DNA of 64,000 bases from Oryzomicrobium sp. Lineage in GTDB: Bacteria > Pseudomonadota > Gammaproteobacteria > Burkholderiales > Rhodocyclaceae. The translations under genes were made by a program, and so were the position numbers. Below, in pieces: positions 6,054 to 50,082 of the stretch. The stretch spans positions 124,001 to 188,000 of the forward strand of contig NZ_JAJTBG010000003.1 in the NCBI RefSeq assembly GCF_021287045.1. Reading direction: 5' to 3'. The notes beneath the pieces are model-generated. The model saw only the letters and a program-made list of their open reading frames with translations, was not told where the DNA came from and ran no database searches. The stretch's first letter is position 1; each line of letters begins with the position of its first letter.

Positions 6054-7646
6054 ATGGCATCCCCCTCCTCCCGCCTCCTGCTCGCTTCCAGCGCCCTGCG
6101 CCGGCTGGAAGCCGCCCACGCCGGCCAGCCCTTGATGGTCCGGGCCGGTGAGGCTGCCGCCCGCTGGGCCGAGAACCTGCGCATCGACGACGCCCGGCCG
6201 GTGCTGGTGCTGGCCGGCCCCGGCAACAACGGGGGCGACGCCTTCGTCTGCGCCACCCGTCTCAAGCAGGCGGACATCGAAGTGACGCTCGTCTCCCGGG
6301 CCGATCCCGCCCGGCTGTCCCCCGACGCCTCAGCCGCCCGCCAGGGCTGGCTGGATGCGGGCGGCGCCATCACCAACGACATTCCCGCCAATACCCCCGA
6401 CACTGCCGGCCCGGCCTGGGGCCTGATCGTGGATGGCCTGTTCGGCATCGGCCTGGCCCGGGACCTGGGCGCCCCTTACGCCTGCTGGAGCGCCGAAGCA
6501 CGGCGCCTGGCGGAGCGGGATCGGTGCCCGGTGCTGGCCCTGGACGTGCCCTCCGGGCTGGATGCCGATACCGGCCGGGCCTGGGGCGGGGCGCTGCGGG
6601 CCACCCACACCCTCACCTTCCTGGCCGACAAGCCCGGGCTGCACACCGCCGACGGGCCGGACCTGGGCGGCGAGGTGCGGGTGGCGGACCTGGGCGTGGC
6701 CCCTACCGGCGACGCCCTTGCCCCGGCAAGCGCACACGATCTGCCCCCGGGCCGCCTGCTGGCCCCTGCCGACTTCGCCCCCTGGCTCCTCCCCCGGGAC
6801 AAGAACAGCCACAAGGGCCGCCACGGCAACGCCGGCATCCTGGGGGGCGCCCCGGGCATGGTCGGGGCGGCACTGCTGGCCGGCCGGGCCGCCTTGTTCC
6901 TCGGCGCCGGACGGACCCTGGTGGGCATCGTCGATCCCCAGGGCCCGGCCCTGGACCCGGCCCATCCGGAACTCATGCTGCGCCGGGGCGCGGCCCTGCT
7001 CGGCGAACCCCTCTCGGCCCTGGCCGTGGGGCCGGGGCTGGGGCAGAGCGACGATGCCCGGGTCGCCCTGGCGGCCGCCCTGGCCCTGCCCATGCCCCTG
7101 GTGCTCGACGCCGACGCCCTCAACCTGATCGCCCAGGATGGTGACCTGGCCCGCCGGACCACGACCCGGGCCGGCGCCACCACCACCATCATCACCCCCC
7201 ATCCAGCCGAGGCGGCCCGTTTACTTGCCACCACCACCGCCGCCGTCCAGGCCGACCGCATTGCCGCCGCCCGAGACCTGGCAGCCCGCTTCAACGCCCA
7301 TGTGGCGCTGAAGGGCTGCGGCACGGTGCTGGCCCATCCGCCCGGCAGCGCCACCGCAGACCCGGACGGCCTACCCACCGCTTGGGCGATCAACCCGAGC
7401 GGCAACCCGGGCATGTCCACCGCCGGCATGGGCGACCTGCTCACCGGTATCGTCACCGCCCTGCTCGCCCAAGGCTGGCCCCCGGGGCCGGCCGTGGAAG
7501 CGGCGGTGCACCTGCACGGCGCCGCCGCCGACGCCCTGGTGGCCGCCGGCACTGGCCCGGTGGGCCTGACCGCCGGCGAGACCATCCCCGCCGCCCGGGC
7601 CCTGCTCAACCGCTGGATCGCCCGCCGGGGCCGCCCGGAAGGGTGA
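6054..7646 (+). CDS. nnr: Bifunctional NAD(P)HX epimerase / ADP-dependent NAD(P)HX dehydratase
   Basis: Metabolite-repair enzyme that restores hydrated NADH and NADPH: the N-terminal YjeF_N domain epimerises the R and S forms, and the C-terminal ribokinase-like domain dehydrates the S form using ADP. 530 residues, the usual size of the fused protein. The epimerase half shows GPGNNGGDAFVCA and PSGLDADTG. The dehydratase half shows KNSHKGRHGNAGILGGAPGM, VLDADALNL and the nucleotide-binding NPSGNPGMSTAGMGDLLTGI near the C-terminus. A possible -10 element (TAGAAT) lies about 12 bases before the ATG, which suggests a short leader. It stands alone between the efflux operon and a DMT transporter, with no operon partner that bears on its function. 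Confidence 0.95.
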   Translation: MASPSSRLLLASSALRRLEAAHAGQPLMVRAGEAAARWAENLRIDDARPVLVLAGPGNNGGDAFVCATRLKQADIEVTLVSRADPARLSPDASAARQGWLDAGGAITNDIPANTPDTAGPAWGLIVDGLFGIGLARDLGAPYACWSAEARRLAERDRCPVLALDVPSGLDADTGRAWGGALRATHTLTFLADKPGLHTADGPDLGGEVRVADLGVAPTGDALAPASAHDLPPGRLLAPADFAPWLLPRDKNSHKGRHGNAGILGGAPGMVGAALLAGRAALFLGAGRTLVGIVDPQGPALDPAHPELMLRRGAALLGEPLSALAVGPGLGQSDDARVALAAALALPMPLVLDADALNLIAQDGDLARRTTTRAGATTTIITPHPAEAARLLATTTAAVQADRIAAARDLAARFNAHVALKGCGTVLAHPPGSATADPDGLPTAWAINPSGNPGMSTAGMGDLLTGIVTALLAQGWPPGPAVEAAVHLHGAAADALVAAGTGPVGLTAGETIPAARALLNRWIARRGRPEG

Positions 7647-7687
7647 CCCGGCGCCCGCTCACGCCACGACAAACAACAACGATATCC

Positions 7688-8563
7688 ATGCCCCCAACCC
7701 ACAATCCCCTGCGCGGCATCGCCCTGATGGTCTGCGCCACCCTCTGTTTCGCCCTTCTCGACGTCACCTCCAAGACCCTGGCCAAGACCTTCGAGGTGCC
7801 CCTGCTGGTCTGGATTCGCTACCTGGTGCACTGCCTGTTCATGGTGGCGGTGCTCGGCCCGCGCATGGGCCGGGGCCTGGTGGCCACCACCCGGCCGGCC
7901 CGCCAGATCGTCCGCGCCGTGCTGCTGGTGGGCGTCACCGGCTTCGCCATGGCCGCCTTTCGGGTGATGCCCCTGGCCGAAACCACCGCCATCATCTTCA
8001 TCACCCCGCTGCTGGTGGCCCTCTTGGCCGGCCCCTGGCTCAAGGAGAAGATGACGCCCCGGCGCTGGGCCATCGTCGCCGCCGGATTCGTCGGCGTCCT
8101 GCTGATCGCCCGCCCCGGGCCGGCGGTCAACGCCGAGGGCATCGGCTGGGCCCTGGCCTGCGCCGCCTGCTACGCGGTGTACCAGATCCTCACCCGCCAG
8201 CTCTCGCCCACCGAGAACACCCTGACCATGCTCTTTTACACCGCCCTGGCCGGCACGGTGACCATGACCCTGGCCCTGCCCCTGTTCTGGGGCGGCCCCC
8301 TGCCCACCCCGGGCCAGGCCGGGCTGATGGCGACCATGGGCATGTGGGGCGGCACCGGCCATCTGCTGCTCATCTCGGCCTTCCGCCACGCCCCGGCCAC
8401 CACCCTGTCGCCCTTCCTCTACGTGCAGCTGTTCTGGGCCACCGCCCTGGGGGCCATCGTGTTCGGGCACCTGCCGGATTCCCTGGCCTTCACCGGCATG
8501 GCCGTCATCGTCGCCAGCGGCGTCGCCCTGGGGCTGGCGGAACGCCGCCCGGCCCGGGCATGA
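7688..8563 (+). CDS. DMT superfamily transporter (EamA domains)
   Basis: Inner-membrane transporter with two EamA repeats and about ten hydrophobic helices in 291 residues, the usual length. The N-terminal repeat begins NPLRGIALMVCATLCFALLDVTSK, typical of the RhaT/EamA group; the second repeat begins near GIGWALACAACYAVYQILTRQLS. Substrate unknown; the family exports amino acids, purines and other small metabolites. The ATG at 7688 is chosen because the protein then starts right before the first helix; the upstream frame extension lies inside nnr. Its stop overlaps the tamA start by four bases (ATGA), which suggests translational coupling but not a shared function. Confidence 0.9.
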   Translation: MPPTHNPLRGIALMVCATLCFALLDVTSKTLAKTFEVPLLVWIRYLVHCLFMVAVLGPRMGRGLVATTRPARQIVRAVLLVGVTGFAMAAFRVMPLAETTAIIFITPLLVALLAGPWLKEKMTPRRWAIVAAGFVGVLLIARPGPAVNAEGIGWALACAACYAVYQILTRQLSPTENTLTMLFYTALAGTVTMTLALPLFWGGPLPTPGQAGLMATMGMWGGTGHLLLISAFRHAPATTLSPFLYVQLFWATALGAIVFGHLPDSLAFTGMAVIVASGVALGLAERRPARA

Positions 8564-35722: not shown

Positions 35723-37369
35723 ATGGAACGGGAATCGATGGAATTCGACGTCGTGATCGTGGGGGGCGGCCCGGCGGGTCTGGGCGCTGCGATCCGTCTC
35801 AAGCAACTGGCCGCCGAAAAGGGCCAGGACGTTTCAGTCTGTCTGATCGAAAAGGGTGCCGAGGTCGGCGCCCACATCCTTTCCGGCGCGGTGATGGACC
35901 CCCGGGCCCTGACCGAGCTGATCCCGGACTGGAAGGAACAGGGCGCGCCGCTCAACGCCCCGGTGTCGGAAGACCGCTTCTACATCCTGTCGGAAACCGG
36001 CGCCACCAAGGTGCCCAATTCCCTGCTGCCCGGCTGTTTCCATAACGAGGGCAACTACGTCATCTCCCTGGCCAACGTGTGCCGCTGGCTGGGCCAGCAG
36101 GCCGAAGCCCTGGGCGTGGAAATCTACCCGGGCTTCGCCGGCGCCGAGGTGGTGTACAACGACGACGGTTCGGTGAAGGGCGTGGCCACCGGCGACATGG
36201 GCGTGCTCAAGGACGGCTCCCACGGCCCGGCCTACCAGCCCGGCATGGAACTGCACGGCAAGTACGTGCTGTTTGCCGAGGGCTGCCGCGGCCAACTGGG
36301 CAAGGAACTGGAAGCCAAGTTCAACCTGCGCGACGGCGTGGAGCCCCAGCAGTACGGCATCGGCATCAAGGAACTGTGGGAGATCAAGCCCGAGAACCAC
36401 CAGCTCGGCCTGGTGGTGCACACCGGCGGCTGGCCCATGGACAACGCCACCTACGGCGGCGGCTTCCTCTACCACCTGGAAAACAATCAGGTGGCGGTGG
36501 GCTACGTGGTCGGCCTGGGTTATGAAAACCCGTTCCTGTCGCCCTTCGAGGAATTCCAGCGCTTCAAGACCCACCCCACCATCCGTGGCTTCTTCGACGG
36601 CGCCAAGCGGGTGGCCTACGGCGCCCGCGCCATCGCCGCCGGCGGCCTACAATCCCTGCCCAAGCTGGTGTTCCCGGGCGGCGCCCTGATCGGCTGCGAC
36701 GCCGGCTTCCTCAATGGCTCGCGCATCAAGGGTTCCCACTGCGCCATCAAGTCCGGCGCCCTGGCCGCCGAAGCCGCCTTCGAGGCCCTGGCCGCCGGCC
36801 GCAGCAGCGACGAGCTGGCCGCCTACCCGGAAGCCTTCCAGAAGTCCTGGCTGTACGAGGAGCTGTACCGCGCCCGCAACTTCAAGCCGGCCATGAGCAA
36901 GGGCCTGTGGACCGGCGCCCTGCTGTTCGGCATCGACCAGAAGCTGTTCGGCGGCAAGGCCCCCTGGACCCTGCACCACAGCGGCCCGGACCACGCCAAG
37001 CTGAAGAAGGCCTCCGAGTGCCAGCCGATCGACTACCCCAAGCCCGATGGCGTGCTGACCTTCGACCGGCTGTCCTCGGTGTTCCTCTCCAACACCAACC
37101 ACGAGGAAGACCAGCCCTGCCACCTGCGCCTGACCAATCCGGCAGTGGCCATCGAGGTCAATCTGGCCCTCTACGACGCCCCCGAGCAGCGCTACTGTCC
37201 GGCCGGGGTGTACGAGATCGTGCGCGAGGCCGACGGTTCCAATCCGCGCTTGCAGATCAATGCCCAGAACTGCGTGCACTGCAAGACCTGCGACATCAAG
37301 GACCCGACCCAGAACATCACCTGGGTCGCCCCCCAGGGCGGCGAAGGGCCGGTCTATCCCAACATGTGA
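35723..37369 (+). CDS. Electron transfer flavoprotein-ubiquinone oxidoreductase
   Basis: 548-residue membrane-associated FAD/4Fe-4S enzyme that passes electrons from reduced ETF to ubiquinone. FAD-binding motif VVIVGGGPAGLGAAIRL near residues 10-26, GAHILSGAVMDP, the quinone-site region, FPGGALIGCDAGFLNGSRIKGSHCAIKSG, and the C-terminal 4Fe-4S ligands in CPAGVYEIV and CVHCKTCDIKDPTQNITW. The length matches the family. The ATG at 35723 is preceded by AAAGGA; a second in-frame Met five codons later is possible. The substrate ETF is encoded 23 kb away (58.5-60.2 kb) and a matching TetR operator occurs in both places. It ends in a strong intrinsic terminator. Confidence 0.95.
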   Translation: MERESMEFDVVIVGGGPAGLGAAIRLKQLAAEKGQDVSVCLIEKGAEVGAHILSGAVMDPRALTELIPDWKEQGAPLNAPVSEDRFYILSETGATKVPNSLLPGCFHNEGNYVISLANVCRWLGQQAEALGVEIYPGFAGAEVVYNDDGSVKGVATGDMGVLKDGSHGPAYQPGMELHGKYVLFAEGCRGQLGKELEAKFNLRDGVEPQQYGIGIKELWEIKPENHQLGLVVHTGGWPMDNATYGGGFLYHLENNQVAVGYVVGLGYENPFLSPFEEFQRFKTHPTIRGFFDGAKRVAYGARAIAAGGLQSLPKLVFPGGALIGCDAGFLNGSRIKGSHCAIKSGALAAEAAFEALAAGRSSDELAAYPEAFQKSWLYEELYRARNFKPAMSKGLWTGALLFGIDQKLFGGKAPWTLHHSGPDHAKLKKASECQPIDYPKPDGVLTFDRLSSVFLSNTNHEEDQPCHLRLTNPAVAIEVNLALYDAPEQRYCPAGVYEIVREADGSNPRLQINAQNCVHCKTCDIKDPTQNITWVAPQGGEGPVYPNM

Positions 37370-42025: not shown

Positions 42026-42778
42026 TCAGTCGGAAAAGCCGCCTTCCAGGCCCGCCGCCCCCCAGCGCAGCAGCGCCAGGGCCGGATCGGCCAGGTCGGC
42101 GGCACGCAGCGGGCGGAACGTGCACACCGCTGGCAGGGGCAGGGCGCCAGCGGCCTCCCTCCCCTCTGCTCCCCGGTCCGCGCCAGACAGGGGCTCCAGG
42201 CGCAGCCACAGGCTGCGCGGCTCGGGCAGTTCGTCCACCCAGCCCCACAGCACGCCGGCGGCGGGTGCGCCGGTACAGGCCAGCGCCAGGGTCTGCAACG
42301 GGTCGGTGCCGGCGACGAAGCTGCCGTCGCCCTGCCAGCCCAGGGTCCGGGCCAGGGCGGCGAGGGTCTGGCTGGGCAGGGTCTGCATGAAGGTGAAGGG
42401 CAGCACCCAGCCTTGGGCGAATTGTCCCAAACCGACGCCGATGGCCGCGGCGCAGCCACGCTCGCTGCCGATCCGCAGCCAGGCGTCGGGGGGCAGCAAA
42501 ACGGGAGGGCGGGCGGGGGATGCCGGCGACAGGACGCCGGCCGAAGCGCCGCCGTCCTGGGCCGTGGCACGGACCGTCTCTGCCGAATCCAGCCCATTCG
42601 CCACGTCCGCCAGGCATTCCAGAGCGCCGTAGAGGGCCAGTTCGGTCCACGTTCCCAGGCGGCGCGGGCGCTGGCCGAGGCGGGCCACCAGGCGCTCGTG
42701 CCAATCCGCCGGCAGGCCGACGCTGCGGCCGGTGACCTGCCACAGCCGATTGACGGGAGGCGTGCGGTTGGCGCTCAT
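42026..42778 (-). CDS. Beta-ketoacyl synthase-like N-terminal domain protein (chain-length-factor-like)
   Basis: 250-residue protein resembling the stand-alone ketoacyl-synthase N-terminal domain of chain-length-factor-like proteins in aryl-polyene and flexirubin loci. Family-like segments are AAIGVGLGQFAQGWVLPFTFMQTLPSQTLAALARTLGW and DPLQTLALACTGAPAAGVLWGWVDEL. No ketosynthase active-site motif is seen, so it is probably non-catalytic. Last gene of the nine-gene operon; its ATG overlaps the ketosynthase stop by four bases. A partnership with the adjacent ketosynthase, as in KS-CLF pairs, is likely but inferred. No gene follows for 247 bases (41754-42025 gap upstream of SRPBCC). Confidence 0.72.
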   Translation of the reverse strand: MSANRTPPVNRLWQVTGRSVGLPADWHERLVARLGQRPRRLGTWTELALYGALECLADVANGLDSAETVRATAQDGGASAGVLSPASPARPPVLLPPDAWLRIGSERGCAAAIGVGLGQFAQGWVLPFTFMQTLPSQTLAALARTLGWQGDGSFVAGTDPLQTLALACTGAPAAGVLWGWVDELPEPRSLWLRLEPLSGADRGAEGREAAGALPLPAVCTFRPLRAADLADPALALLRWGAAGLEGGFSD

Positions 42779-43989
42779 TGCGCCGCCTCCCGGCCATCCA
42801 AGTCTTCCAACACCAGAGCAGCGTGGCCGCCGCCAAAGCCGAGGATCAGGGCCAGCACGGTGCGCGGCGGCGCCGCCAGGGGCGTGGTGCCGTCGGCCAG
42901 GGCCATGCGCAGCGCGGGATCGAGGGACCAGTCCCGGGGGGGCTGCACGCCCGCTTCCAGGCAGGCCGTGAGCAACGCCAGCTCGGCGGCGCCGGAGGCG
43001 CCCAGGGTGTGGCCCAGGGCGGCCTTGAGGGTCACCAGGGGCGGCAGGGAGGCGAAGCGCTCGGCCAGCACGGCGGCTTCCACCGCGTCGTTGCCCGGAC
43101 TGCCGGCGGCCTGGACCTTGACCAGGCCGACGTCGGCGGCTTGCCGGCCGGCCTCGGCCAGGGCGGTATCAATGGCGCGGGCGATGGCCGGGGCCACGGC
43201 GCCGGCCGGGTCGCTGCCATCCACCACCCCTGCCAGTCCGGCCACCGCCCAACGCGCCCCGGGGGGCGCGTGGCGGGTCAGGCGCAGGGCGGCCACCGCC
43301 TCCCCCAGCACCAGGCCGTCCCGCGCCGCGCCAAAGGGCCGCGCCGCCTCCGGCGAGAGCAGCTGCATGGCGGCAAAGCTGGCCAGGGTGAAGCGGTTGG
43401 ACAGCTCGACTCCGAGCACCAGGGCCGAATCCCAGGGGCCGTCGGTCAGCATGTCCCGGGCGGCGGCCAGGGCGTTCATCGCCGAGGTGCAGGCGGTGGA
43501 TACCGCGAACACCGGCCCCTGCCAGTCGAGCCAGGCGGCGATGCGCCGGGTGAAATCGGTGCAGTCGGTGGACGGGTAATCGGCCAGGGCCTCCACCGCC
43601 CCCACGTCGTTGGACGACGAGGCCACGAACAGGGGGCCGGAGCGGTCGGCGGCGAGGTTGCCGGCATCGGCCTGCTTCTCTGCCTGCTCCACGGCCCGGC
43701 GCACCAGCTCCCGGGCGCGTTCGTACCAGGCCTCCATATTGCCGCTGGGCGCGGAAGGCGCCACCTCGGCCGGGATACCCCGGTAGGGCCAGGATTCGGC
43801 GTCGCTCCCCTCCCCCAGGGTCACCCGGACGGTGGCCGCCCCCACGGGGGAAGCACCGGCGGCCAGGGTGTCCAGGGCGGCGGCCAGGCTCCCGCCGAGG
43901 CAGGACACCAGGCCCCGGCCGGCGAGGTACACCGGGGGGCGGCGGGAAACGCCGGGGGAAACGGAAGGATCGGGCAGCGCGGCGGCCAT
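42775..43989 (-). CDS. Beta-ketoacyl-ACP synthase (FabF-like) with an altered active site
   Basis: 404-residue thiolase-fold ketosynthase. The active-site Cys167 is in VSTACTSAMNAL, and Lys322 and His327 are in LKAALGHTLGASGAAEL. The first catalytic His, normally in HGTGTP, is missing: the corresponding segment reads VQAAGSPGNDAVE (292-304), two residues shorter with Ala in the His position. This should impair malonyl decarboxylation if the alignment is right, so the enzyme may act as an acyl-transferring or partner-dependent synthase. The ATG at 43989 precedes a short disordered leader and RRPPVYLAGRGLVSCLG. It is flanked by the ACP gene (22-base gap) and the CLF-like gene (four-base overlap). 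Confidence 0.82.
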   Translation of the reverse strand: MAAALPDPSVSPGVSRRPPVYLAGRGLVSCLGGSLAAALDTLAAGASPVGAATVRVTLGEGSDAESWPYRGIPAEVAPSAPSGNMEAWYERARELVRRAVEQAEKQADAGNLAADRSGPLFVASSSNDVGAVEALADYPSTDCTDFTRRIAAWLDWQGPVFAVSTACTSAMNALAAARDMLTDGPWDSALVLGVELSNRFTLASFAAMQLLSPEAARPFGAARDGLVLGEAVAALRLTRHAPPGARWAVAGLAGVVDGSDPAGAVAPAIARAIDTALAEAGRQAADVGLVKVQAAGSPGNDAVEAAVLAERFASLPPLVTLKAALGHTLGASGAAELALLTACLEAGVQPPRDWSLDPALRMALADGTTPLAAPPRTVLALILGFGGGHAALVLEDLDGREAAQ

Positions 43990-44011
43990 GCGGAAAGAGG
44001 CGCGGCCGGGG

Positions 44012-44311
44012 TCAGGCGACCGGAGCGACCGGGGCGGCCGCCAGGCGGGCCTCGGCCAGCCGGACGGTGAGGTGCTCGGCCAGGGTGGCGAGGCAGGCCA
44101 GGGCGCGGCGGGTTTCCTTGCTGTCGGCCATGCGAACGCCATAGCGGCGCTGGATCGCCATGGAGATCTGCAAGGCGTCGAGGGAATCGAGCTGGAGGCG
44201 CGATTCCGGGCCGAACAGGATTTCGTCCGAAGCGATGCCGCCGGCGGGTTCGTCCTTGTCCGCGGCGTCCAGCACCAGGGTCTTGAGTTCGTCGATGAGG
44301 GCTGCGTTCAT
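44012..44311 (-). CDS. Acyl carrier protein
   Basis: 99-residue ACP with the phosphopantetheine attachment Ser43 in LQLDSLDALQISMAIQRRYG. The DEILFGPESRLQLDSLD context is typical of dedicated secondary-metabolite ACPs, as is the slightly extended Ala/Val-rich C-terminus. It should carry the acyl chain for the neighbouring ketosynthases and present it to the BtrH-type acyltransferase. The start overlaps the ABC permease stop by four bases. No phosphopantetheinyl transferase lies in the window. Confidence 0.9.
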   Translation of the reverse strand: MNAALIDELKTLVLDAADKDEPAGGIASDEILFGPESRLQLDSLDALQISMAIQRRYGVRMADSKETRRALACLATLAEHLTVRLAEARLAAAPVAPVA

Positions 44312-45489
44312 GACAGGGTCTTCCGGGAGAAGAGCAGGCGCGCCGCCGCCAGCATGGCCGCGGCGAAGGCGAACAGGATGGCGGCCTGGGGCAGCACCTG
44401 GGCCGGGCCGCCGCCCCGCACCAGCACGCCCACCAGGCCGTCCAGGGCCCAGTTCATGGGCGACAGGGCGGCCACCCGCTGCATGGCGGCGGGCATGATG
44501 AAGGTGGGCACCATGATGCCGCCCACCGCCGCCATGAGGATGTTGATGACCGGGCCGATGGCGTTGGCCTGGGCGTGGCTGCGCACCAGGCAGGCGACGC
44601 ACAGGGCCAGGCCCACGGCGGCGGCGCTGATGGCGGCCAGCACCAGCAGCAGGGCCAGGGGGTCGATCCCGGCCAGGGACAGGCCATCGCCGCCCAGAAG
44701 AGGCATCAGCCATACCCCCACGGCCAGCATCAGGGCGGCCTGGACGCCGTTCACGATGAAATAGGGAATGGCCTTGGCCGCCACCTGGACGCCATCCGGC
44801 ACCCCCAAGGCGGACAGGCGCGCCAGGGTGCCGTCGCTCCGCTCCTGCACCAGCAGGTTGGCCATGGCCGCCACCACGAAGAACATGCCGAAGATCAGCC
44901 AGGCCGGCACGTTGTGCTGCACGGCGGACAGGCGCAGGCCCTGGGGGCCGCCGCTGCGCTCGCTGGCGATGAAGCGCCCGATGTCCGCCGCCCCGGCCGG
45001 AGCCAGGCCCATGAAGCGCTCCATGAGGAACAGGGCGCGCACCTCCCCCACCAGGGCCGACAGCTGGGCGGCGGTGACGCGCTGCACGCCGCCGTCCATG
45101 CCCGGCTCCACCACCAGCCGCAGGGGCGGGGCCGAGGGGGCCTGGGGCGCCGACAGGGCGTCGGAAAAACCCGCTTCCAGCACCAGCACGTACTTGAGGT
45201 TGGGCGCCCCTTGGCCGCCTTGGGAGGAGAGCGCCACCCGCCAGTCCGCCGGCAAGGGCCGGGGGGTGCCGTGCTCTTCCTGCCAGCGCTCGACGAAGCG
45301 GGTCGCCGCCGGCCCGTCGTCGTGCTGGGCGATGGCGTAGGCCAGGGTGTCGGCTGGCGGGTTGTAGGCGTTCTTGAGGGCCAGGGACATCACCACGATG
45401 AACACCAGGGGCATCAGGAACAGGGCCCCCAGGCCGTGCAGGTCGCGGCTCAGGGCGAGGAATTCCTTGCGGATCAGGGCGGCCAGCAT
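44308..45489 (-). CDS. ABC-2 type transporter permease
   Basis: 393-residue ABC-2 permease: N-terminal LIRKEFLALSRDLHGLGALFLMPLVFIVVMSLALKNAY with TM1, a periplasmic domain of about 150 residues, then five or so helices including NVPAWLIFGMFFVVAAMANLLVQERSDGTLARLSALGVP, the classic ABC-2 signature. It pairs with the ATPase gene one base upstream, whose product should power it. The location inside a lipid or polyketide-type biosynthetic operon suggests export of the product across the inner membrane. Confidence 0.9.
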   Translation of the reverse strand: MLAALIRKEFLALSRDLHGLGALFLMPLVFIVVMSLALKNAYNPPADTLAYAIAQHDDGPAATRFVERWQEEHGTPRPLPADWRVALSSQGGQGAPNLKYVLVLEAGFSDALSAPQAPSAPPLRLVVEPGMDGGVQRVTAAQLSALVGEVRALFLMERFMGLAPAGAADIGRFIASERSGGPQGLRLSAVQHNVPAWLIFGMFFVVAAMANLLVQERSDGTLARLSALGVPDGVQVAAKAIPYFIVNGVQAALMLAVGVWLMPLLGGDGLSLAGIDPLALLLVLAAISAAAVGLALCVACLVRSHAQANAIGPVINILMAAVGGIMVPTFIMPAAMQRVAALSPMNWALDGLVGVLVRGGGPAQVLPQAAILFAFAAAMLAAARLLFSRKTLS

Positions 45490-45490
45490 G

Positions 45491-46420
45491 TCAGTCGCGC
45501 AGGGTGCGCTGGGTCAGGTCGAGGAACAGCTGTTCCAGGGAGCACTCGCCGTAGCGGGCGCGGCGCACCGTACCGCCGGCAGCGGCCACGGCGGCCAGGG
45601 CCGGGGCCGGGTCGCCGTCGGCCAGCAGGTCCACCACCACGCCGCTCCCCTCTTCCCGCGCCGTGCCGAAGGGCGCCAGGACGGCGGCCAGGGCGGTCCG
45701 TTCCAGGCCGTCGGCCTCGACGCGCAGCTGGCGGGCGCCCTCGGCGTGCAGGTCGGCCAGGGGGGCGTCGCGCAGCACCCGGCCGTGGTCGACGATGACC
45801 ACCCGGTCGGCGATAGCCTCGATCTCGTCCATGTAGTGGGAGGTGTAGATGATCGCCGCGCCGCCGTCGGCCAGGCGGCGCACGGCATCGAGCAGGAAGG
45901 CCCGGGACTGGGGGTCCACGCCGACGGTGGGCTCGTCGAGGACGATCAGCTCCGGCTCGGGCAACAGGGCAATGGCCAGGTTGAGGCGGCGCTTGAGCCC
46001 GCCGGAAAGGCGCGCCGCCCGTTGGCCGGCGAAGCGTTCCAGCTGGGCGAAGGCCAGGCAGGCGGCGGCCCGTTCCCGGGCCTTGGCGCCGTGCAGGCGG
46101 GCGGCACCGGCGAAGCAGGCCAGGTTTTCGGCCACGGTCAGGGCGGGGAAGAAGGCGTATTCCTGGGGCGCCACGGCGATGCGGGTGGGGGCCTGGCGGC
46201 GCACCTCGGCAAGGGACACGCCGTCGATGGCGATCGCCCCCTGCTGGATCGGCAGCTGGCCGGACAGGTGGGAGATCAGGGTGGTTTTGCCCGCGCCGTT
46301 GGGGCCGAGCAGGCCCAGCACCGCGCCCCGCCCGGCGGCCAGGGACACCCCGGCCAGAGCCGGCTCGGCAGCGCCGGGATAGCGGTAGGCCAGGTCGCGG
46401 ACTTCCAGCATGGACGGCAT
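45491..46420 (-). CDS. ABC transporter ATP-binding protein
   Basis: 309-residue ATPase for the adjacent ABC-2 permease. Walker A LLGPNGAGKTTLISHLSGQ (about 36-54), signature RLSGGLKRRLNLAIALL, Walker B ELIVLDEPTVGVDPQSR, H-loop IIYTSHYMDEIEAIADRV. A C-terminal domain of about 90 residues follows, as in DrrA/CcmA-like drug and lipid exporters. The start could be the first Met or the one three codons later. It lies 20 bases after the BtrH-type gene and one base before the permease. Confidence 0.93.
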   Translation of the reverse strand: MPSMLEVRDLAYRYPGAAEPALAGVSLAAGRGAVLGLLGPNGAGKTTLISHLSGQLPIQQGAIAIDGVSLAEVRRQAPTRIAVAPQEYAFFPALTVAENLACFAGAARLHGAKARERAAACLAFAQLERFAGQRAARLSGGLKRRLNLAIALLPEPELIVLDEPTVGVDPQSRAFLLDAVRRLADGGAAIIYTSHYMDEIEAIADRVVIVDHGRVLRDAPLADLHAEGARQLRVEADGLERTALAAVLAPFGTAREEGSGVVVDLLADGDPAPALAAVAAAGGTVRRARYGECSLEQLFLDLTQRTLRD

Positions 46421-46440
46421 CGGAAGGCTCGCCCCGGCGC

Positions 46441-47466
46441 TCAGAGGGCGCCGCGCAGGTCGCGGAAGAAGGCGGTTTCCCGTTCCGCCTGCTCGCGCAG
46501 CAGTGCTGCCAGGGCGGACGGATCGAGGGTTTCCCGGCCCTTGAGCATGCGCGCGGCGCGCAGGGCAAAGACGCGCCAGTGGTCGCCGATGGTCAGCAGC
46601 CGCGCCGAGAACTCGGCCAGCACCGGCTTATCGCACAGCTCGGCGGCTTCCTGGAGGAAAGCGGCGTAGAGGAAGCGGAAGCCGGCGCCGCCGGTGCCGA
46701 TCTCTTCCTGCATACGCACCACGTGGCCGACGAAGGCGGCGCTGGCCGGGGCCTGGGGATCGAGGGCGGCGATGCGCTTGGCCAGCAGGCCCATGGCCCG
46801 CACCCCGACGATGGGCACCGGCGCCAGCATGGCGCGGGCGGTGCGGCGGATGGCGGCGAGCACGGCCTGGGGATCGACCCCATCGCGCTCCACACCCAGC
46901 ACCCGGTAGAGCAGGCCCTTGGGCGCCAGCAGGCCCTTGGCGAAGCGGGCCCGGGCCAGATCGGCCCGGGAGCAACGCTGGGGCGTCTCGAATACCGGGT
47001 CGCTGATCAGGTAGTCGTCCCCTTCCCGACCGATCACCAGCAGGTTGTGGCCGTTGAAGTGGAAGCGCATGTCCTCGGGGAAGTAGGACAGCCAGAACAC
47101 CGAGGTTTGCAGCCCCACCACCTCGCCGGCGTCGAGCAACTGGTCGAGGCGTGCCTGGCCCGCTTCCGGGCGGCGGAAGGTCTCGAAAGAGAGCTTCAGC
47201 CCCAGGGGCTTGGCCAGGCCGCGGATGATGGCCCGGGGCGGCATGCGGTAGGCGATCAGGGGCAGGCCCTGGAGCTTGACGAAGGGCAGGTAGGCGAAGG
47301 CCAGGGCGCCGGACAGGCCGAAGGCCATGGCCTCCGACAGGGGCAGGCCGGCGTGGCTGACCAGGGTCGAGATGGCGCCGCTCTCGCAGTGGGCGGCGTG
47401 GCGGTGCTGGAAGGCGGCGGAGGTTTCTGCGGAAGATTCGGCGGAGGTGGGCAGCGCGGCGTTCAT
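46441..47466 (-). CDS. BtrH N-terminal domain protein, probable acyl-ACP acyltransferase
   Basis: 341 residues. The N-terminal half matches the papain-like BtrH domain: nucleophile Cys27 in HAAHCESGAISTLVSHAGLPLSEAMAFGLSG, likely catalytic His140 in FNGHNLLVIGREGDDYLISDP and Asp156 in the same segment. BtrH itself moves an acyl chain from an ACP to an aminoglycoside in butirosin biosynthesis. The C-terminal half (about residues 190-341) fits the helical DUF4872-type domain found with it. Here it probably transfers the ACP-bound product to an amine or hydroxyl acceptor. The ATG overlaps the upstream HTH-like gene stop by four bases. Confidence 0.82.
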   Translation of the reverse strand: MNAALPTSAESSAETSAAFQHRHAAHCESGAISTLVSHAGLPLSEAMAFGLSGALAFAYLPFVKLQGLPLIAYRMPPRAIIRGLAKPLGLKLSFETFRRPEAGQARLDQLLDAGEVVGLQTSVFWLSYFPEDMRFHFNGHNLLVIGREGDDYLISDPVFETPQRCSRADLARARFAKGLLAPKGLLYRVLGVERDGVDPQAVLAAIRRTARAMLAPVPIVGVRAMGLLAKRIAALDPQAPASAAFVGHVVRMQEEIGTGGAGFRFLYAAFLQEAAELCDKPVLAEFSARLLTIGDHWRVFALRAARMLKGRETLDPSALAALLREQAERETAFFRDLRGAL

Positions 47467-47858
47467 GGCAGGCGGGTCAGTTGGTCCACGGTCAGGCCCA
47501 GGGCGTCGGCGTAGCGGGCCAGCAGGGCGGGCTTGAGGCGGGCGAACACCGCCGGGCGCAGGTGGCGGCGCACCCGCCAGCGCCACAGGCCGCTGGCCTG
47601 GGCGAGCAGGGCCAGGTCCATGCGCCGGGCGTACATCCAGTACTCCAGGGGCGAGGCCGTCCCGGCGGCGACCCTGGCCCGGGCCTCATCGGCCTGCTGG
47701 CGCAGGGCGTCCACCGCCTGGAGGGTGACGATCTCTTCTACTTCCCAGCCTTGCGACGGGGCGGTGACGATGCGCCCCTGGGCGTCCCGGGCGTAGAGGG
47801 CCTTGCGCAGCCCGGCGTGGGTGCGGTTGCCTTCCTGGGGGACCTGGTCGAATTCCAT
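47463..47858 (-). CDS. Small protein with a C-terminal HTH-like region
   Basis: 131 residues, not recognised with certainty. The N-terminal part MEFDQVPQEGNRTHAGLRKALYARDAQGRIV resembles a short regulatory or ACP-contact domain. The C-terminal part (about 70-131), with SPLEYWMYARRMDLALLAQASGLWRWRVRRHLRP and LLARYADALGLTVDQLTRLP, has the spacing of a Cro/XRE-like helix-turn-helix. It sits in the middle of the biosynthetic operon with a one-base overlap (TGATG) to the KASIII gene and four bases to the BtrH gene. It may be an operon-specific regulator or a structural partner; function unknown. Confidence 0.7.
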   Translation of the reverse strand: MEFDQVPQEGNRTHAGLRKALYARDAQGRIVTAPSQGWEVEEIVTLQAVDALRQQADEARARVAAGTASPLEYWMYARRMDLALLAQASGLWRWRVRRHLRPAVFARLKPALLARYADALGLTVDQLTRLP

Positions 47859-48991
47859 CAGACCGCTTCCAGGTACACGAAACCGCAGGAGAAGCGGCCG
47901 CTTTCCGGCACGTACATGAGGATGCGCTGCCCCTTTTCGATGCGGCCGCTCTTGAACAGCTCGTCGAGCATGATGTAGGGCGAGGCGGAGCCGGTGTTGC
48001 CTTTGTCCGACAGGTTGGTGAACCAGCGCTCCCGGGGCACCGGCAGGCCGATTTCGACCAGGCGCCGCTCCAGTTCGTCGGCGAAGAACCAGGACGACAT
48101 GTGGGGCAGGAACCAGTCGATGCCGTCCGCCGTCAGGCCGCGCTTGGCGGCGATGGCGGCCAGGGGCTCGGCGAAGGTGGCGGTGCCGATGTTGTCGTTG
48201 AGCAGGCGCACGTCCTGCTTCACGGCGAAGATCGACTGGGCGCCCCAGGCATCCGCCGAATAGCGCAGCCAGCCCTTGAGGCCGCCGTCGGCGGTCTTGT
48301 CGGCGCCGGCGTACATGCAGGCGGGCAGCTGGTGGGCCGCCGACGACAGGTCGATCCAGTGGATGCGCAGGGACAGGGGCCCCCGGGGCTGGTTTTCCAA
48401 CAGCATGGCGCCGGCACCGTCGGAGAGCATCCAGCGCAGGAAATCCTTTTCGAAGGCCAGCTCGGGGCGCTCTTCCAGGGCCGCCACCTTGTGCTCGGCC
48501 TCGGCGTCGAACAGCTGGGCACGCAGCAGGGGCGAGGCCAGCTCGGAGCCGGTGGCCACGGCACGGCGCGCCTCGCCGGCGCGGATCGCCAGCCAGGCGT
48601 GCTTGAGGGCGGCGGTGCCGGCCAGGCAGATGCCGGCGCAGGAGACCACTTCCAGGCGCGGCCATTTCAGCTCGCCATGCACCATCACCCCGTGGTTGGG
48701 CATCAACTGGTCGGGCAGCGTGGTACCGGTGGCCAGCACGTCCACCTGCCCCGTGTCGCCCAGGCCCTCGATGGCGCGCACGGTGAGCTGGGCATTGGTC
48801 ATGGCCGGCTCGCCGGTGGCCCGGTCGATGGCGTAGTGGCGGCTCTTGATGCCGTTGCTACGCAAGACGACGCGCCGGGCCCGGGAAGGCTTGCCGCCAA
48901 CCATGCCGAGCACCTTCTCGATCTCGTCGTTGGACACCGGATCGAACGGCAGGTAGGCGGCGGTGCGGGTGATGAAGACGTCAGTGCTCAT
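47858..48991 (-). CDS. Beta-ketoacyl-ACP synthase III-like (DarB-type)
   Basis: 377-residue KASIII-fold condensing enzyme. All three catalytic residues are visible: Cys118 in VVSCAGICLAGTAAL, His297 in WFLPHMSSWF, Asn332 in SDKGNTGSASP. The N-terminus VFITRTAAYLPFDPVSNDEIEKVLGMVGGKPSRARRVVLRSNGI and the Met-Pro-Asn-His region (LMPNHGVMVHGEL) resemble the ketosynthases paired with DarA in dialkylresorcinol loci. Those DarB enzymes join two fatty-acyl-derived chains head to head. It overlaps the DarA-like gene by 11 bases and the HTH-like gene by one. The exact product is not predictable from sequence. Confidence 0.85.
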   Translation of the reverse strand: MSTDVFITRTAAYLPFDPVSNDEIEKVLGMVGGKPSRARRVVLRSNGIKSRHYAIDRATGEPAMTNAQLTVRAIEGLGDTGQVDVLATGTTLPDQLMPNHGVMVHGELKWPRLEVVSCAGICLAGTAALKHAWLAIRAGEARRAVATGSELASPLLRAQLFDAEAEHKVAALEERPELAFEKDFLRWMLSDGAGAMLLENQPRGPLSLRIHWIDLSSAAHQLPACMYAGADKTADGGLKGWLRYSADAWGAQSIFAVKQDVRLLNDNIGTATFAEPLAAIAAKRGLTADGIDWFLPHMSSWFFADELERRLVEIGLPVPRERWFTNLSDKGNTGSASPYIMLDELFKSGRIEKGQRILMYVPESGRFSCGFVYLEAV

Positions 48992-49982
48992 ACAGGGAAA
49001 GGCGCTCCCGGCCGGAACCGGAGGGTTGCTCGAAATGGGTTTTGAGGGCGCCCAGGCGGCGGCGCAGCAGGGGACGCAACAGGGTCTGGACAGTCAGGCT
49101 GAGGGGCACCACGGCGATGATCGCCGCGATCAGGAAGGCCACGTAGGCGGCCAGGGCCGGCACACGCCGCGCCGCGCCCGGGGGGCCGATCCAGCGCAGC
49201 AGTTTGCCCCAGACGAAGAAGCTGCGGGTGCCCACCTTCTCGCTGGCAAGCAGGCGCGGATCGACCGTCACCGCCCCCAGGCCGGCAAGCAGCGGCCCCC
49301 TGCCCTGCTCCCCATCCCGGTCGAGGGCCTCGGCCAGGGCATGGCCGAAGCGGGCGGCCCCGGCGATGGTGGCGGCGTCGATGCCGGCAGGGGGCAGGCC
49401 CAGCCAGGCGTCGCGCCGGCCGGTGAGCATCCAGCGCGGCGTGGTAACGAGGGTGGCCAGGGTCGGCCCCGGGTCGGTGAAAGCCACATGATCGATCAGG
49501 CGGGCGCCCAGGGCGGCGAGGCGGGCCTTCATCTTCTCCTGGGCAAGCAGCCACATGTTGCGGCAGGCCACCACGGTGACCACCGGCTTGCCGGCCAGCA
49601 GCCGGGCCGCCAGGGGATCGGCGAGAAAACCTTGGATCGGCAAGGACGGGGCCAGGAACCACACCTGGTAGGGCAGGATCACCAGGTCGAAATCCTCGTC
49701 GCCGGTGAGCCCGAGCGGAGCAAGCCGGGGGGGAACCTGGTGGGCGCTTTCGGGGAAAGCGTCGAGAAAGCGGAAAAACGGCCAGGGAAACGGGTAATCG
49801 GCTTCCGGACGCAGTTTTTCCACATGAACGTCGATACGGCCGTTTTCCAGCAAGGGCGCCACGATCTGCCGGGTGATCGCCGACAGCTGGCCGCTCTGAG
49901 AATACTCCACCACCAGCACCCGCTTGCGCGGGGCGCCCGGACCGGGGCGAGTGACAGGAGCATGGGGCGGAAGTGCGGCCAC
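48981..49982 (-). CDS. darA: DarA-like dialkylresorcinol condensing enzyme
   Basis: About 333 residues. It opens with a flavodoxin-like strand and loop, RVLVVEYSQSGQLSAITRQIVAP, followed by FPWPFFRFLDAFPESAHQVP, LVILPYQVWFLAPSLPIQGFL and PVVTVVACRNMWLLAQEKMKARL. I recognise these as the conserved blocks of DarA proteins from Bacteroidetes and proteobacterial resorcinol/flexirubin loci. Two C-terminal hydrophobic segments (AYVAFLIAAIIAVVPLSLTV) suggest membrane attachment. The start is unclear: the first credible codon is a GTG at 49982; an upstream TTG at 50039 overlaps a terminator stem. It is the first gene of the nine-gene operon. Dar proteins make 2,5-dialkylresorcinols with a DarB ketosynthase; that chemistry is inferred here. 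Confidence 0.82.
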   Translation of the reverse strand: MAALPPHAPVTRPGPGAPRKRVLVVEYSQSGQLSAITRQIVAPLLENGRIDVHVEKLRPEADYPFPWPFFRFLDAFPESAHQVPPRLAPLGLTGDEDFDLVILPYQVWFLAPSLPIQGFLADPLAARLLAGKPVVTVVACRNMWLLAQEKMKARLAALGARLIDHVAFTDPGPTLATLVTTPRWMLTGRRDAWLGLPPAGIDAATIAGAARFGHALAEALDRDGEQGRGPLLAGLGAVTVDPRLLASEKVGTRSFFVWGKLLRWIGPPGAARRVPALAAYVAFLIAAIIAVVPLSLTVQTLLRPLLRRRLGALKTHFEQPSGSGRERLSLYEH

Positions 49983-50038: not shown

Positions 50039-50082
50039 AAAGAGCCGGAAGTCTAGCATTTCTGCTTGTCTTCCGGCTCTTT
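50039..50082 (-). terminator. Terminator between fpr and the Dar-like operon
   Basis: AAAGAGCCGGAAG (50039-50051) and CTTCCGGCTCTTT (50070-50082) form a 13-base perfect stem with an 18-base loop. On the minus strand the stem runs into TTTTG. It follows the fpr stop by about 110 bases and precedes the DarA-like start, so it should insulate the operon from fpr transcription. Confidence 0.75.

Follow-up and report, generated by a model that had tools for sequence, protein, structure and literature searches.

The closest described system to the locus studied here is the dar cluster of Azoarcus sp. BH72 (azo0283-azo0293), which runs darK, darJ (ketosynthase), darC (acyl carrier protein [ACP]), darI (permease), darH (PilT), darG (PHD), darF (ATPase), darE (BtrH-like), darD, darB, and darA, and whose product, the yellow pigment arcuflavin, combines a dialkylresorcinol (DAR) with a xanthomonadin-like aryl polyene through an ester that the authors predicted from mass spectra (PMC3949708). 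The polyene genes of BH72 lie outside dar in two mutually unlinked loci, and an insertion in a gene of either locus abolished the pigment; the polyene starter is 3-hydroxybenzoate provided by a chorismatase, and an ammonia lyase is not required (PMC3949708). Here, we analyzed a stretch of 64,000 nucleotides from Oryzomicrobium sp. (contig NZ_JAJTBG010000003.1, positions 124,001 to 188,000, hereafter the window), which contains a nine-gene operon of the same kind. We propose, with a probability of about 0.9, that the operon is the dar component of an arcuflavin-type pathway, because its gene set and order are those of BH72, because polyene and chorismatase loci are predicted in the same genome, and because dar genes co-occur with the polyene family PF13723 across related genomes.

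Two other systems share part of this chemistry. In the flexirubin clusters of Bacteroidetes, a DarA/DarB resorcinol is likewise ester-linked to an aryl polyene, which starts from tyrosine via an ammonia lyase (PMC3992019), whereas the genome of the window carries a chorismatase. The 2-hexyl-5-propylresorcinol cluster of Pseudomonas chlororaphis (darABC-SR) shares the DarA and DarB chemistry, yields a free resorcinol, and includes darS and darR, encoding regulators of the AraC/XylS type; darD, darE, darF, darI, darJ, and darK go unmentioned in the accessible account (PMC6403133).

The window operon and its counterpart in Azoarcus

Nine open reading frames (ORFs), all on the minus strand, span positions 42026 to 49982 of the window in the order darA-B-D-E-F-I-C-J-K, with intergenic gaps, in the direction of transcription, of -11, -1, -4, +20, +1, -4, +22, and -4 bases. 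The start codon of darA is unsure (the GTG at 49982 was taken; a GTG at 49919 and a TTG at 50039 are likewise open), which leaves the operon gaps unaffected. These coordinates bear out the one-strand operon with short gaps and overlaps proposed in the initial annotation, whose DarB, BtrH, ABC ATPase, ABC-2 permease, ACP, and ketosynthase (KS) labels are backed by Pfam or NCBIfam matches. Its reading of a DAR-type, head-to-head lipid pathway with its own ACP, a BtrH-type acyltransferase, a pair resembling a KS and a chain-length factor (CLF), and an ABC-2 transporter was also right. Given the curated family matches, the operon content is not due to chance.

According to Table 1 of PMC3949708, all nine genes occur in BH72 in the same order, where the ATPase and permease genes are separated by two additional ones, annotated PHD and PilT. 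By position, the NCBIfam families DarG and DarH correspond to BH72 darD and darE, so that the two sets of names clash. The nine-gene set has, thus, already been described, and the window operon, as judged from its gene content, is another member whose partner genes are elsewhere in the genome. With it, a pigment pathway that is already known gains another genome from the Betaproteobacteria.

Polyene and chorismatase loci in the same genome

A search of the window's own genome with the polyene chain-length-factor family PF13723 (Ketoacyl-synt_2) returned one match, on contig C6 (G000:C6:201327-201833; 80.6 bits, cut-off 25), within a putative polyene locus spanning ~198.6 to 213.8 kb of that contig. 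The stretch around the match has, in order, an antiporter-like ORF, a ketoreductase, a dehydratase-like ORF, the PF13723 protein, a ketosynthase, and a methyltransferase-like ORF; it continues with a polysaccharide deacetylase-like protein, a hydrolase-like ORF, an MMPL-type exporter, a LolA-like protein, and an acyltransferase-like protein, followed by a FabZ-like dehydratase, an AMP-ligase-like protein, a membrane protein, an ACP, and a second ketosynthase. The first ketosynthase matches PRK09185 (563 bits, cut-off 407), and in an NCBIfam scan of ten proteins of the locus, a curated cut-off was exceeded by this ketosynthase, the ketoreductase, and the ACP, the other seven having matches below cut-off; the remaining labels come from such matches or were read from sequence and synteny. 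The gene content resembles that of the arc genes listed in Table 1 of PMC3949708. Moreover, in one relative (L029), ten genes of this locus have relatives at 39 to 67% identity around the dar genes.

A chorismatase-family match (PF21168, FkbO_Hyg5-like_N; 136 bits, cut-off 27) at C6:47212-47601 marks a candidate XanB2-type enzyme, located in a stretch (~45.6 to 50.7 kb) where the neighboring ORFs were labeled from sequence as a halogenase-like flavoprotein, acyltransferase-like, and glycosyltransferase-like. In BH72, one polyene locus (azo0253-0264) is ~20 genes from dar by locus tags (PMC3949708), whereas the polyene genes found in the window organism are on a contig other than that of the operon, most of them together at one locus and the chorismatase at another.

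Co-occurrence of dar and polyene genes

Of 399 genomes searched in the order, 12 had DarE (NF053550) above cut-off and the same 12 had DarB (NF005293), while PF13723 was above cut-off in 127, including all 12 dar-positive genomes. Within the same family, PF13723 was present in 6/6 dar-positive and 0/7 dar-negative genomes. A DarB scan of named genomes was followed for the best 80 of 551 confirmed stretches, which lean to close relatives. The nine-gene order was found in 41 of these 80 loci, an A-B-D-E arrangement with darJ on the opposite strand in 21 (18 Pseudomonas, one Thiopseudomonas, one Porticoccaceae, and one Pseudomaricurvus), and 18 differ or end at contig edges. The nine-gene set, thus, recurs in many relatives, and the opposite-strand arrangement occurs in Pseudomonas and its kin. 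Whole-genome searches for 50 of the 80 loci detected PF13723 in 49. At least three polyene genes at ≥35% identity lay within the fetched stretch in 7 of 91 dar loci; in L029 and L062, the dar genes have polyene genes on either side. Two of the 91 loci (L028 and L048) are apparently one record (a contig of 351,821 bases and an identical DarB in both), so counts over the 91 include one place twice.

These results bear on a different explanation, raised by the initial annotation from the lack of aryl-polyene genes in the operon, of a separate, polyene-free pathway in which DarE transfers the DarAB resorcinol to another acceptor and the ABC transporter exports the product. The operon indeed holds no polyene gene, it is compact and includes a dedicated ACP, a transferase, and a transporter, and PF13723 also occurs without DarE, so that joint working is not required. 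The initial annotation had itself named polyene genes elsewhere in the genome as evidence to the contrary, and, as far as sequence can tell, such genes are there; on the strength of these polyene and chorismatase loci, we rejected the polyene-free pathway. It also sits poorly with the presence of PF13723 in all 12 DarE genomes among the 399, with the relatives whose dar genes sit inside polyene loci, and with the BH72 precedent, and we regard it as hardly credible.

DarE and the synthesis of the resorcinol

Five of the best 80 DarB stretches had no DarE near darB (L073, L076, L077, L099, and L102). Whole-genome searches of these five genomes and of two more (L072 and L094) found DarE in L076, L072, and L094; it was undetected genome-wide in the other four, belonging to two Pseudomonas, a Brenneria, and a draft gammaproteobacterium. 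darA adjoins darB in three of these four genomes, and none was found in the Brenneria stretch. Since DarB genomes without DarE exist, since P. chlororaphis makes a free resorcinol with darABC and two regulators (PMC6403133), and since a heterologous host given darA and darB of Chitinophaga produced a resorcinol (PMC3992019), DarE is probably dispensable for resorcinol synthesis. Joining and transport, therefore, remain for DarE and its companions.

A second alternative is that the product of the window operon is a free dialkylresorcinol, like that of P. chlororaphis, the extra genes serving only supply or export. The heterologous production from DarA and DarB agrees with it, as does the release of the P. 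chlororaphis resorcinol from the cell (PMC6403133), but no DAR could be detected in extracts of BH72 (PMC3949708). Moreover, the P. chlororaphis cluster, in the accessible account, consists of darABC, darS, and darR (PMC6403133), and four DarB genomes do without DarE, so that resorcinol synthesis does not generally involve the extra genes. We, thus, consider a free resorcinol as the end product very unlikely.

All four DarE-less genomes carry PF13723. Its use as a sign of ester formation was rejected for this reason; PF13723 is a marker of polyene capacity, not of ester formation, and a genome able to make the polyene does not for that reason need DarE.

Assessment of the proposed arcuflavin-type pathway

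Several points weigh against assigning the window operon to an arcuflavin-type pathway. The match to BH72 is one of gene set and order in a published table. At the polyene locus, only the PF13723 protein, one ketoreductase, one ketosynthase, and the ACP are above curated cut-offs. The chance of finding PF13723 in 12 of 12 dar-positive genomes under free draws is 7e-7, a value uncorrected for the shared ancestry of these related genomes. PF13723 went undetected in one of the 50 DarB genomes searched, a 2.0-Mb draft (G432), and the four DarE-less genomes show DarB and PF13723 together without DarE. Finally, no tests of DarE, DarJ, or DarK were seen in the accessible arcuflavin, flexirubin, and P. 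chlororaphis literature.

In the arcuflavin-type pathway that we propose, DarB would condense two intermediates drawn from fatty acid metabolism, with DarA aromatizing the product to a 2,5-dialkylresorcinol, as reported for their homologues. Enzymes encoded on C6 would build the polyene acid from 3-hydroxybenzoate, as reported for BH72, and the two halves would be joined by an ester, as the BH72 mass spectra suggest. DarC, DarE, and DarJ-DarK may carry and transfer the acyl chain at the joining stage, and DarF-DarI may carry either the pigment or one of its precursors through the inner membrane. Any role of DarC, DarD, DarE, DarF, DarI, DarJ, and DarK is one that we infer.

Assignment of an ester-forming enzyme was not found in the accessible portion of the open-access literature on dialkylresorcinol, aryl polyene, arcuflavin, flexirubin, and BtrH. 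DarE, DarJ-DarK, and DarC could provide a short candidate list for this step; the study on flexirubin pointed to a different, ligase-like enzyme, FlxW (PMC3992019).

Individual proteins of the operon

The features are collected in Table 1.

Table 1. Genes of the window operon in transcription order (positions in the window)
Gene and product	Position	Strand	Basis
darA, DAR aromatase homologue, start unsure	48981..49982	-	synteny, identity to relatives, role in Table 1 of PMC3949708
darB, StlD/DarB-family ketosynthase (DAR cyclase)	47858..48991	-	NF005293, conserved Cys/His/Asn
darD (= NCBIfam DarG)	47463..47858	-	NF053536
darE (= NCBIfam DarH), BtrH-type acyltransferase	46441..47466	-	NF053550, BtrH_N, DUF4872
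darF, ABC transporter ATPase	45491..46420	-	PF00005 (ABC_tran), 106 bits, cut-off 25
darI, ABC-2 type permease	44308..45489	-	PF12698 and PF01061 (ABC2_membrane), both above cut-off
darC, acyl carrier protein	44012..44311	-	PF00550 (PP-binding)
darJ, divergent FabF/ApeO-type ketosynthase, Gln293 at HGTGT His position	42775..43989	-	PF00109 and PF02801
darK, ApeC-like chain-length-factor fold	42026..42778	-	AlphaFold2 model, PDB fold match

DarA had no match in the Pfam and NCBIfam scans and owes its name to synteny and to its identity to relatives (43 to 64% with eight syntenic ones, with a conserved N-terminal SQ-GQL motif). DarB reaches 580 bits with the StlD/DarB model NF005293 (cut-off 450) and falls below the cut-off of the narrower dialkylresorcinol DarB exception model NF053539 (479.7 bits versus 550). 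Its Cys122, His297, and Asn332 are kept in 90/90 sequences; active-site counts cover the window and the 91 loci, minus loci without a match or under the length limit.

The third protein, DarD, matches DarG_fam (NF053536; 173 bits, cut-off 70). It had no match in Pfam, and in NCBIfam only two DarG models and one match below cut-off; its AlphaFold2 model is poor (pLDDT 61), and a PDB fold search gave no match at E ≤ 0.001. The helix-turn-helix (HTH) label first given to this gene finds no backing in the family search, the model, or the fold search and was not retained.

DarE matches DarH_acyl (NF053550; 460 bits, cut-off 300), with BtrH_N and DUF4872 above the Pfam cut-offs, and its Cys27, His140, and Asp156, a presumed triad, are kept in 87/87 sequences. 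Comparison of a DarE alignment with PDB sequences gave eight weak matches (best E 0.026) to designed or other short chains, which were taken as chance. Two genomes of one genus (g29; L036 and L037) encode, next to a ketoreductase-like gene, a distant DarE-like protein that stays under the cut-off (61 to 68 bits); they carry PF13723 elsewhere and no DarB above cut-off.

DarC is a marginal match to PP-binding (21.3 bits versus a cut-off of 20.8), NCBIfam ACP models matching below cut-off only, and its Ser43 is kept in 79/79 sequences. In addition to the two ketosynthase domains of DarJ, both above the Pfam cut-offs, ACP_syn_III_C also passes within the operon. DarJ keeps Cys167, Lys322, and His327 in 78/78 sequences, while residue 293, at the position of the HGTGT histidine, is Gln in 47/78, including the window, and His in 31/78, mainly in Pseudomonas, in Azoarcus and Zoogloeaceae relatives, and in genus g51. 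The polyene ketosynthase of the same genome has His at this position, unlike the window DarJ. PDB 6qsp_A was the second-best match of the DarJ profile, which also held this polyene ketosynthase, so that the ranking is not that of DarJ only.

DarK had no family match in Pfam or NCBIfam. The best PDB fold match of its AlphaFold2 model (pLDDT 75) is 6qsp_B, that is, ApeC, the CLF of an aryl-polyene KS (E 9e-5, TM 0.40/0.42, 16% identity), so the earlier CLF label of this gene is backed by fold. PF13723 matched none of 12 DarK sequences at E ≤ 1, and no Cys is among the invariant alignment columns. When DarK and the polyene CLF were compared as profiles, the result was weak (probability 20%, E 0.001); it was set aside as too weak alone, and the fold search carried the assignment. 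By these models, DarJ-DarK looks like a divergent KS-CLF pair of the aryl-polyene type. It differs from ApeO-ApeC (PDB 6qsp) in that DarK, closest to ApeC by its model, is 16% identical to it and lacks the PF13723 match, and in the Gln of the window-lineage DarJ.

Loss of the HGTGT histidine in ketosynthases generally accompanies loss of chain elongation. Because this histidine is replaced by Gln while the Cys, the Lys, and the second His are retained, the DarJ-DarK pair of the window lineage might have stopped elongating and, with DarE and DarC, might form a dedicated machine esterifying the finished polyene to the resorcinol, a tentative proposal that we consider unlikely as it stands. A general loss of elongation is at odds with the existence of His-type DarJ proteins.

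Operon history and rearrangements

In the DarB tree, the window falls in a clade of 33 rows (support 100/100) with Variovorax, Sphaerotilaceae, and Gallionellaceae, which also includes Zoogloea, Uliginosibacterium, and other Rhodocyclales rows; the five genomes of the same family in the tree fall outside this clade. A flanking housekeeping protein (window positions 35741 to 37369), found in 11 of the 13 genomes searched, is 78 to 80% identical in three same-family genomes and 64 to 66% identical in Variovorax, Rhizobacter, and Caldimonas genomes, whereas DarB is 59 to 62% identical in those same-family genomes versus 73 to 74% in the Variovorax, Rhizobacter, and Caldimonas genomes. Since DarB groups outside its own family while the housekeeping protein is closest to the same-family genomes searched, the operon is likely, on these comparisons, to have moved horizontally.

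One locus (L035) has Phd-like and PIN-like ORFs, read from sequence, at positions 7541 to 8350, in the darF-darI interval that PHD and PilT genes occupy in BH72. It is the only one of 48 loci measured (one record counted twice) with a darF-darI gap above 400 bases, and for this reason the PHD/PilT-type pair looks like an insertion and not like pathway genes. In two genomes of genus g51 (L025 and L026), darE-F-I is some kilobases away from darC-J-K and on the other strand, and darB is ~15 kb from darE; the operon is split there, and these genes are retained.

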